Shown here in pieces: positions 60,699 to 61,772 of a DNA stretch of 64,000 nt; the stretch's first letter is position 1; every line of letters begins with the position of its first letter. Source of the stretch: an uncultured Flavobacteriales bacterium (lineage in GTDB: Bacteria > Bacteroidota > Bacteroidia > Flavobacteriales_D > Sanyastnellaceae); NCBI GenBank assembly GCA_938085425.1, contig CALKGQ010000002.1:62001-126000 (forward strand). Direction: 5' to 3'. The position numbers and the translations under genes were made by a program. The notes under the pieces are model-generated. The model was not told the origin of the DNA. It worked only from the letters and a program-made list of their open reading frames with translations, and made no database searches.

Positions 60699-61670
60699 TC
60701 AAATGCTCAAAATGCGGGCGATCCGCACTTCGTCGTCGTTGATTTCACTTTTGTTCGTGATGGCCTCTTCAAATGGCGTCAAGGAGATTTTGTCGTTGAG
60801 GATGCCCGCCATCACATCGTTGTGCCCCGTTCGCAAAGCTTCGACGGCAGCCACCCCCAAACGAGAGGCCAAGACCCTGTCAAAACACGAAGGGCTTCCA
60901 CCGCGTTGCAAGTGGCCCAAGACTGTGATGCGCGTTTCGTATCGGTTGGTCAGGGCCTGCACCTTTTTCGCAATCTCAAAGGCGCCTCCATTGGTGTCCC
61001 CTTCAGCCACCAAAACAATGCTGCTCGTCTTGTTGCTTTGCTCACCCGCCTGAAGCACAGCCACGAGATCCTCAATGCTCATGTTCATTTCAGGGGTCAT
61101 CACCGCCACCGCACCAGTGGCAATGCCCGATTTCAACGCAATGAAACCGCTGTCCCGACCCATCACCTCCACAAAGAACAGCCGGTTGTGGCTGTCTGCA
61201 GTGTCCCGAATTTTGTCAACGGCCTCTACCACAGTATTGATGGCCGTGTCAAAACCAATGGTGCAATCTGAACCACTGAGGTCATTGTCAATCGTACCTG
61301 GAAGACCAACCACAGGAAAGCCGGTTTCTTGGCCAAACTTTAAGGCGCCTGTGAAGGTTCCGTTGCCTCCAATGACCACCAATCCGTCGATGCCGGCTTC
61401 CACGAGATGAACATGGGCGCGCTTTCGTCCTTCGGCTTCGAAAAATTCTTGGCAACGGGCAGATTTCAAAATGGTCCCCCCACGGCCCAAAATCTTGGCC
61501 ACGGAGCGGACGTGCAGACGCTTGAAGTCTCCATCAATGAGTCCTTGATAGCCTTGAAACACGCCCATGACTTCCAACTCGTGGAAGACTGCGGTACGCA
61601 CCACCGCGCGGATGGCCGCATTCATTCCGGGGGCGTCCCCTCCTGAGGTAAGTACTGCGATTTTCTTCAT
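60699..61670 (-). CDS. pfkA: ATP-dependent 6-phosphofructokinase (conservative start)
   Basis: 323 residues from the family-like start [20 protein letters not shown]. The ATP and fructose 6-phosphate sites are [20 protein letters not shown] and [20 protein letters not shown], with [20 protein letters not shown] and [20 protein letters not shown] after them. It makes fructose 1,6-bisphosphate, the committing step of glycolysis. The open frame continues upstream to an ATG at 61760, and that extension looks like a signal peptide; a promoter box lies 4 nt before that upstream ATG (separate entries). Which start is used is unresolved: the family favours 61670, the promoter spacing favours 61760. 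Confidence 0.95.
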
Positions 61671-61760
61671 GTCGATGGGCGTTTCTGCTTGCGCTTGAAC
61701 GGGCACAAATGTCGTCAAAGAAGTGACAATTCCTAAAAGCAAAGGCCAGAATTGGCACAT
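61671..61760 (-). other. in-frame, signal-peptide-like N-terminal extension of pfkA
   Basis: Thirty codons directly upstream of the pfkA start read MCQFWPLLLGIVTSLTTF, then VPVQAQA and ETPID. This has a hydrophobic core and a good signal-peptidase-like AQA end, with no basic residue near the N-terminus. It may be translated as part of PfkA, or be an untranslated leader. Confidence 0.5.
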
Positions 61761-61764
61761 CTTG

Positions 61765-61772
61765 CAAAGATA
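61765..61772 (-). promoter_or_regulatory. -7 promoter box TATCTTTG before the extended pfkA start
   Basis: On the minus strand TATCTTTG, then CAAG, then the ATG at 61760; a TTG lies 16 bp upstream of the box. For the conservative start at 61670 it would give a leader of about 90 nt. Confidence 0.6.

Follow-up and report, generated by a model that had tools for sequence, protein, structure and literature searches.

A conserved AraR-type operator and divergent Nudix regulator upstream of pfkA in the Sanyastnellaceae, and a hydrophobic in-frame extension that is probably promoter DNA

The window analysed here, a 64,000-nucleotide stretch of contig CALKGQ010000002.1 from an uncultured Flavobacteriales bacterium of the family Sanyastnellaceae, carries a phosphofructokinase gene, pfkA, followed on the same strand by genes for glyceraldehyde-3-phosphate dehydrogenase (gap) and beta-phosphoglucomutase and flanked upstream by a divergent regulator gene (Table 1). 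The pfkA product is a full ATP-dependent enzyme, scoring 414.9 bits against the curated TIGR02482 cut-off of 371.35 over the whole profile (1-301 of 301). Its frame stays open above the family start, past ATG 61760 and ATG 61811, until a stop 192 nt above 61670. According to the original prediction, ATG 61760 shares the frame of pfkA, precedes 61670 by 30 codons and follows TATCTTTG at a distance of 4 nt. We confirmed each of these points, the order on the minus strand being TATCTTTG (61772-61765), CAAG and ATG 61760; the prediction was silent on ATG 61811, further up, which means that 61760 has another ATG above it in its frame. In the extended protein the models of the enzyme family (TIGR02482, PRK03202, PF00365) do not start before residue 32-33 (residue 33 for TIGR02482), so the 30 extra codons lie outside the family; ATG 61670 is aligned as ATG throughout the genus (11 genomes, counting that of the window).

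Table 1. Features in and around the pfkA control region (positions in the window)
Feature	Coordinates	Strand	Evidence or remark
Beta-phosphoglucomutase gene, further downstream	58121..58780	-	TIGR01990 above cut-off
Type I glyceraldehyde-3-phosphate dehydrogenase gene, next after pfkA	59660..60646	-	TIGR01534 above cut-off
pfkA, ATP-dependent 6-phosphofructokinase, 323 aa	60699..61670	-	Family start ATG 61670; TIGR02482
In-frame extension MCQFWPLLLGIVTSLTTFVPVQAQAETPID	ATG 61760 to 61671	-	Most likely untranslated leader or promoter DNA; no comparably hydrophobic in-frame leader in 10 congeners
Candidate promoter P2, -7 box GACATTTG	61706..61713	-	Leader of ~31 nt to ATG 61670
Candidate promoter P1, -7 box TATCTTTG	61765..61772	-	Transcription predicted to start at ATG 61760 or beside it
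Operator GTGT-N7-ACAC, reads GTGTCATCTGTACAC on the - strand	61774..61788	.	68/72 family loci; BtAraR site pattern
Candidate -7 box TATCTTGT of the regulator gene	61798..61805	+	N4 (CCCC) before ATG 61810; sequence
Divergent Nudix/NrtR_WHD regulator gene, AraR-like	61810..62529	+	PF21906 E 6.9e-21, PF19368, PF00293; BtAraR 5bs6 E 2.8e-31

The DNA upstream of pfkA was compared among the 11 genomes of the genus, whose PfkA proteins, where the match is full-length, are 85-90% identical to that of the window, the closest genome found standing at 90%. At the place of P1 the 10 congeners have no TAHHTTTG box and hence no such box with an ATG behind it, and none has an in-frame leader of comparable hydrophobicity, the best 12-residue mean being 1.31 (G007) against 1.98 in the window. 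An in-frame stop lies within 9 nt of the family ATG in three of the ten (G001, G002, G008). The distance from a shared ATTTG box to the ATG, 35 nt in the window, is 22 nt in G002, G004, G009 and G010, 43 nt in G003, G005 and G006, 44 nt in G001, 45 nt in G007 and 52 nt in G008; the box thus stands in another frame than the window's in nine congeners, and the tenth, G001, has the in-frame stop. Stops and frameshifts in relatives, both of which were found, are what the original prediction had named as speaking against a translated extension. Pointing the other way, further in-frame ATGs occur at -87 in G004 and G010, with an open frame, a best 12-residue mean of 0.49 and no box four nucleotides before them, and at other places in G003, G005 and G007. 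Three irregularities of the sample are recorded here. The pfkA matches in L011/L014 (G002:C124) fall in two pieces ~290 nt apart, so that the gene or the assembly is interrupted there. In G086, filed in genus g20, pfkA (L017) is 87% identical to that of the window, whereas other g20 copies show 69-75%, an anomaly that reflects either transfer or a misplaced contig. The remote loci L015 and L016 (57-58% identity), the only two from the contig search, were left out of later counts.

Taken by itself, the extension has a modest hydrophobic core. Its best 12-residue Kyte-Doolittle mean of 1.98 was equalled in 326 of 5000 stop-free dinucleotide shuffles (6.5%), and 6 of the 71 remaining pfkA leaders, when read in frame, were as hydrophobic. 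The extension begins MCQFWP and has neither K nor R before the core, hence no positively charged n-region of the kind that marks a Sec signal peptide; in a mechanically chosen set of 249 ORFs from the same genome, 47 first-ATG starts are equally hydrophobic, and in 38 of these such a residue precedes the core. Conservation as coding sequence in orthologues, also expected of a Sec signal peptide, was not found in the 10 congeners. The codon score was 0.00 per codon against a gene-internal mean of 0.29 (SD 0.16), a value as low being found in 4.1% of 3169 gene windows; because 19% of the 47 hydrophobic starts score as low, codon usage is weak evidence on the nature of the extension. An AQA motif precedes ETPID, and the hydrophobic codons overlap a conserved DNA block that contains the ATTTG box. 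RNA of the leader and first codons (61760-61620) folded no better than shuffles (z 0.93). Export or membrane anchoring was rejected on conservation and n-region charge.

The operator pattern was sought across the family, where pfkA was matched in 101 of 114 genomes and the upstream DNA of 72 loci was examined; L012, which has no N-terminus, and L001 and L014, which repeat L002 and L011, were left out, and in many loci from L072 onward the real ATG sits ~9-18 nt before the aligned start. GTGT-N7-ACAC occurs within 230 nt upstream of pfkA in 68 of the 72 loci, whereas permutations of the half-sites gave 0/72 and other spacings 0-1/72, and the window's own genome has a background of 0.0018 per 230 nt. 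Next to pfkA, 64 of the 72 stretches carry a relative of the divergent gene, and 63 of the 64 have the operator (in L071 the regulator is present and the pattern absent), and in three loci of another genus, g12, that have the operator and no adjacent regulator, an orthologue lies ~3 kb away (54-57% identity), so that the operator accompanies 66 of 67 regulator relatives, adjacent (64) or ~3 kb distant (3). Conversely, G001, G086 and G108 are without the operator, and genome searches gave no close orthologue of the regulator: none in G001 and G108, and a 37% relative in G086 (genomes 92, 84 and 64% complete, respectively). L019 and L030 have the operator and less than 400 nt of upstream DNA, too short to show the neighbour; L017 is equally short, and its genome was searched. 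The presence of the operator thus follows the presence of the regulator.

The product of the divergent gene combines a Nudix-like domain with an NrtR winged helix, all three domain models (PF00293, PF21906, PF19368) matching above their cut-offs. It shares this two-domain family with the NrtR regulators of NAD metabolism (PDB 3gz5, which we take to be a Shewanella oneidensis protein; E 8.1e-10), from which it differs in its glycolytic neighbours and in a score of 88.1 bits, far below the 400-bit cut-off of the NCBIfam NtrR equivalog. Its best solved relative is BtAraR of B. thetaiotaomicron (BT0354, NrtR family; PDB 5bs6, 5dd4, 5ddg, 5deq), with the same pairing of Nudix-like domain and winged helix. 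The text available for BtAraR (PMC4666351) describes EMSA fragments containing GTGTATTTGATACAC, GTGTTACTTTTACAC and GTGTAAAAAAGACAC, all of the form GTGT-N7-ACAC, a crystal structure on GTGTTACTTTTACAC, and DNA contacts by Lys179, Arg180, Asn181 and Lys184 together with two wing residues (Lys204/Arg205), which define GTGT. The recognition helix DKRNFRK, which supplies the first four of these residues, is identical in the window's regulator; of the 63 neighbours that were aligned, a set to which the window belongs, 62 have it, and in the last one the alignment leaves this stretch without residues. The operator found at 68 of 72 loci is of the BtAraR type, other NrtR groups having different sites.

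The two regulators differ in setting and probably in ligand. That of the window stands divergently beside pfkA-gap, with no arabinose operon. In a single pairwise alignment, with chain numbers shifted by 3 to match PMC4666351, Arg34, which contacts O4 of arabinose, is replaced by Gln and the nearby Phe36 by Thr, which makes an effector other than arabinose likely. The regulator gene itself looks leaderless in the window species, TATCTTGT-CCCC-ATG being of the TAnnTTGY type described in the accessible part of PMC9723704. In this region (61798-61812) the window shows an alignment gap of 29 columns against most congeners. A second Nudix regulator-like protein, 35% identical, is encoded elsewhere in the same genome (L053; G000:C4:3026-3637).

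The spacing between -7 boxes and start codons was measured in the window and a further 318 kb of its own genome (L110-L126), 382 kb of 2.07 Mb in total. Among 101 TAHHTT(T/C)G boxes, 28 have an ATG after exactly four nucleotides (N4) against 2.1 expected from an ATG frequency of 0.021 per position; the count is 17/61 for TAHHTTTG, 11/40 for TAHHTTCG and 5/12 for TATCTTTG. No ATG stands at N2 or N3, and one to three stand at each of N5-N7. Frames from 25 of the 28 N4 ATGs are open for at least 100 codons, and two of the three short ones end at the edge of a fetched piece. In the 249 mechanically chosen ORFs, N4 accounts for 10 of 24 in-frame TAHHTTTG-to-ATG distances of up to 24 nt, permuted motifs giving 0-4 matches in all. 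The spacing is strongly non-random and the leaderless class is real by geometry; this test replaced as evidence the mere enrichment of TATCTTTG in the window (4 occurrences, 0.6 expected). The claim that TATCTTTG before ATG 61760 has the spacing of a leaderless set therefore stands. Among 13 ATGs listed at N3-N6 from TAHHTTTG, however, that of pfkA alone is not the first of its frame.

Leaderless mRNAs of flavobacteria, as far as the available texts describe them (PMC9723704, PMC6847099), likewise combine a TAnnTTTG -7 box with a start codon at the start site; in F. johnsoniae 4-5 nt separate the -7 box from the start site (PMC6847099), a distance that TATCTTTG-N4-ATG 61760 also shows. The geometry is frequent in the window's genome, but for pfkA it is not conserved. 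The same partial sources report that 5.5% of mapped mRNAs are leaderless in F. psychrophilum (PMC9723704) and that 87% of leaders exceed 10 nt in F. johnsoniae (PMC6847099), and the geometry seen here (28/101 boxes) is commoner than these leaderless shares.

Boxes near the operator were counted in the 68 loci that have it. In 43 of these loci the operator is followed, before the gene, by a TAHHTT(T/C)G box (permuted motifs, 0-3/68), which in 34 cases stands 26-30 nt further down. P1 lies 1 nt below the operator. At the same offset as P1, three g12 genomes have TAC(A/C)TTTG with no ATG at N4; in one case of this type (L101) a GTG at N4 is followed by an in-frame stop. An ATG at N4 of such a box is found in the window only (1/43). 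The frequency of the N4 geometry and the box at equal offset in g12 make P1 a credible promoter, and it may be a working one. P2 belongs to an [AC]ATTTG box present in all 11 genomes of the genus and in G086; since G001 and G086 retain it despite lacking operator and regulator, the box is separate from the operator. P1 is a perfect box. F. johnsoniae promoters almost always have a T at -12, according to the accessible part of PMC6847099, and this T is missing from P2, which makes P2 an imperfect box and counts against it.

Operator-like sites also occur elsewhere in the congeners. Seven (L062, L064, L128, L133, L137, L143, L144) lie between a gene for an amylase-like secreted protein, whose likeness was judged by eye, Pfam giving only C-terminal domains, and a TonB-receptor-like gene. 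Four (L136, L140, L147, L149) have a divergent alpha-amylase/cyclomaltodextrinase-like gene on one side and, on the other, a gene that matches CBM48/CBM20; domains were examined in L133 and L140 only. The neighbours of three similar sites (L130, L148, L151) are less clear, and two matches inside ORFs (L127, L145) are probably due to chance. Since a control pattern read backward also finds matches, between 0 and 7 per genome and in 7 of the 11 genomes, an isolated site with none of the recurrent neighbours carries little weight. In the window's own genome the pattern occurs at pfkA only, with no match to the amylase and a receptor match of 43% at best. These neighbours point to a probable alpha-glucan regulon in the congeners, recalling the SusC-type transporters and glycoside hydrolases listed for BtAraR in the text available (PMC4666351). 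Together with the beta-phosphoglucomutase gene below pfkA-gap, they suggest an alpha-glucan signal as the input.

Operator, regulator and P2 box are conserved, and the hydrophobic in-frame leader is absent in the congeners. We infer that 61671-61809 is a shared control region of pfkA and the divergent NrtR/AraR-type regulator. By analogy with BtAraR, the regulator would bind the operator as a repressor dimer near promoter elements of both genes and would release it on binding a sugar or sugar derivative. Transcription of pfkA would start from P2 and, in the window species, probably also from P1, with a cytosolic PfkA translated mainly from ATG 61670, and the hydrophobic frame above it would have arisen incidentally from T-rich promoter DNA and lineage-specific indels. 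We consider this reading, of a repressor-controlled promoter region with its main start at 61670, probable. Of the options offered by the original prediction, the untranslated leader fits best, and a secretory or anchor N-terminus was not borne out. That the extension works as a signal peptide or anchor and takes PfkA into the envelope or out of the cell is extremely improbable: a 12-residue hydrophobic stretch and AQA before ETPID speak for it, but 6.5% of shuffles contain so hydrophobic a stretch, the charge that most comparable starts carry is missing, no congener has such a leader, and an ATP-using enzyme outside the cytosol would be without its substrate.

The suggestion that translation may begin at 61760 fared better in part, as the box geometry is genuine and P1 may work; what did not hold up is the hydrophobic frame, absent in the congeners. 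Given how common leaderless geometry is here, an RNA from P1 would have AUG at its 5' end, and ribosomes could start on it at 61760, so that, in the window species only, some 353-aa PfkA with 30 extra residues would be made beside the 323-aa form from P2. The perfect box with its N4 ATG, the open frame, the start-site distance seen in F. johnsoniae (available text of PMC6847099) and the box at equal offset in three g12 genomes favour this, but chance would give some 2 of 101 boxes an N4 ATG, the window is the only such case among the 43 family boxes, the frame occurs in no congener, and the ATG is the sole one of the 13 not to be the first of its frame; we regard it as unlikely. An elaboration of it, in which a promoter newly arisen against the repressor site gives a sugar-controlled choice between normal PfkA and an isoform whose N-terminus is extended by a hydrophobic 30-residue segment, is distinctly unlikely; if true, two isoforms of a glycolytic enzyme would be made by promoter choice. 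Alternatively, P1 could be the sole start, its 90 nt forming a long untranslated leader with no leaderless initiation, as the g12 boxes lacking an ATG at N4 would allow; retention of the P2 box in 11/11 genomes and the unremarkable folding of leader and first codons weigh against it, and it seems quite improbable. It shares its start codon with the preferred reading and does not exclude it; our gradings are judgements and, given this overlap, do not sum to one.

Among the literature matches listed, none described an NrtR-family regulator acting on pfkA, most subscription papers lying outside the search. The reading of the region as a repressor-controlled promoter corrects a tempting misreading in which control DNA is taken for a signal peptide. 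It also offers a testable regulatory unit: across a family of bacteria, core glycolysis (pfkA-gap) would stand under an AraR-type regulator with an operator of known kind, and in the congeners alpha-glucan genes probably do so too.
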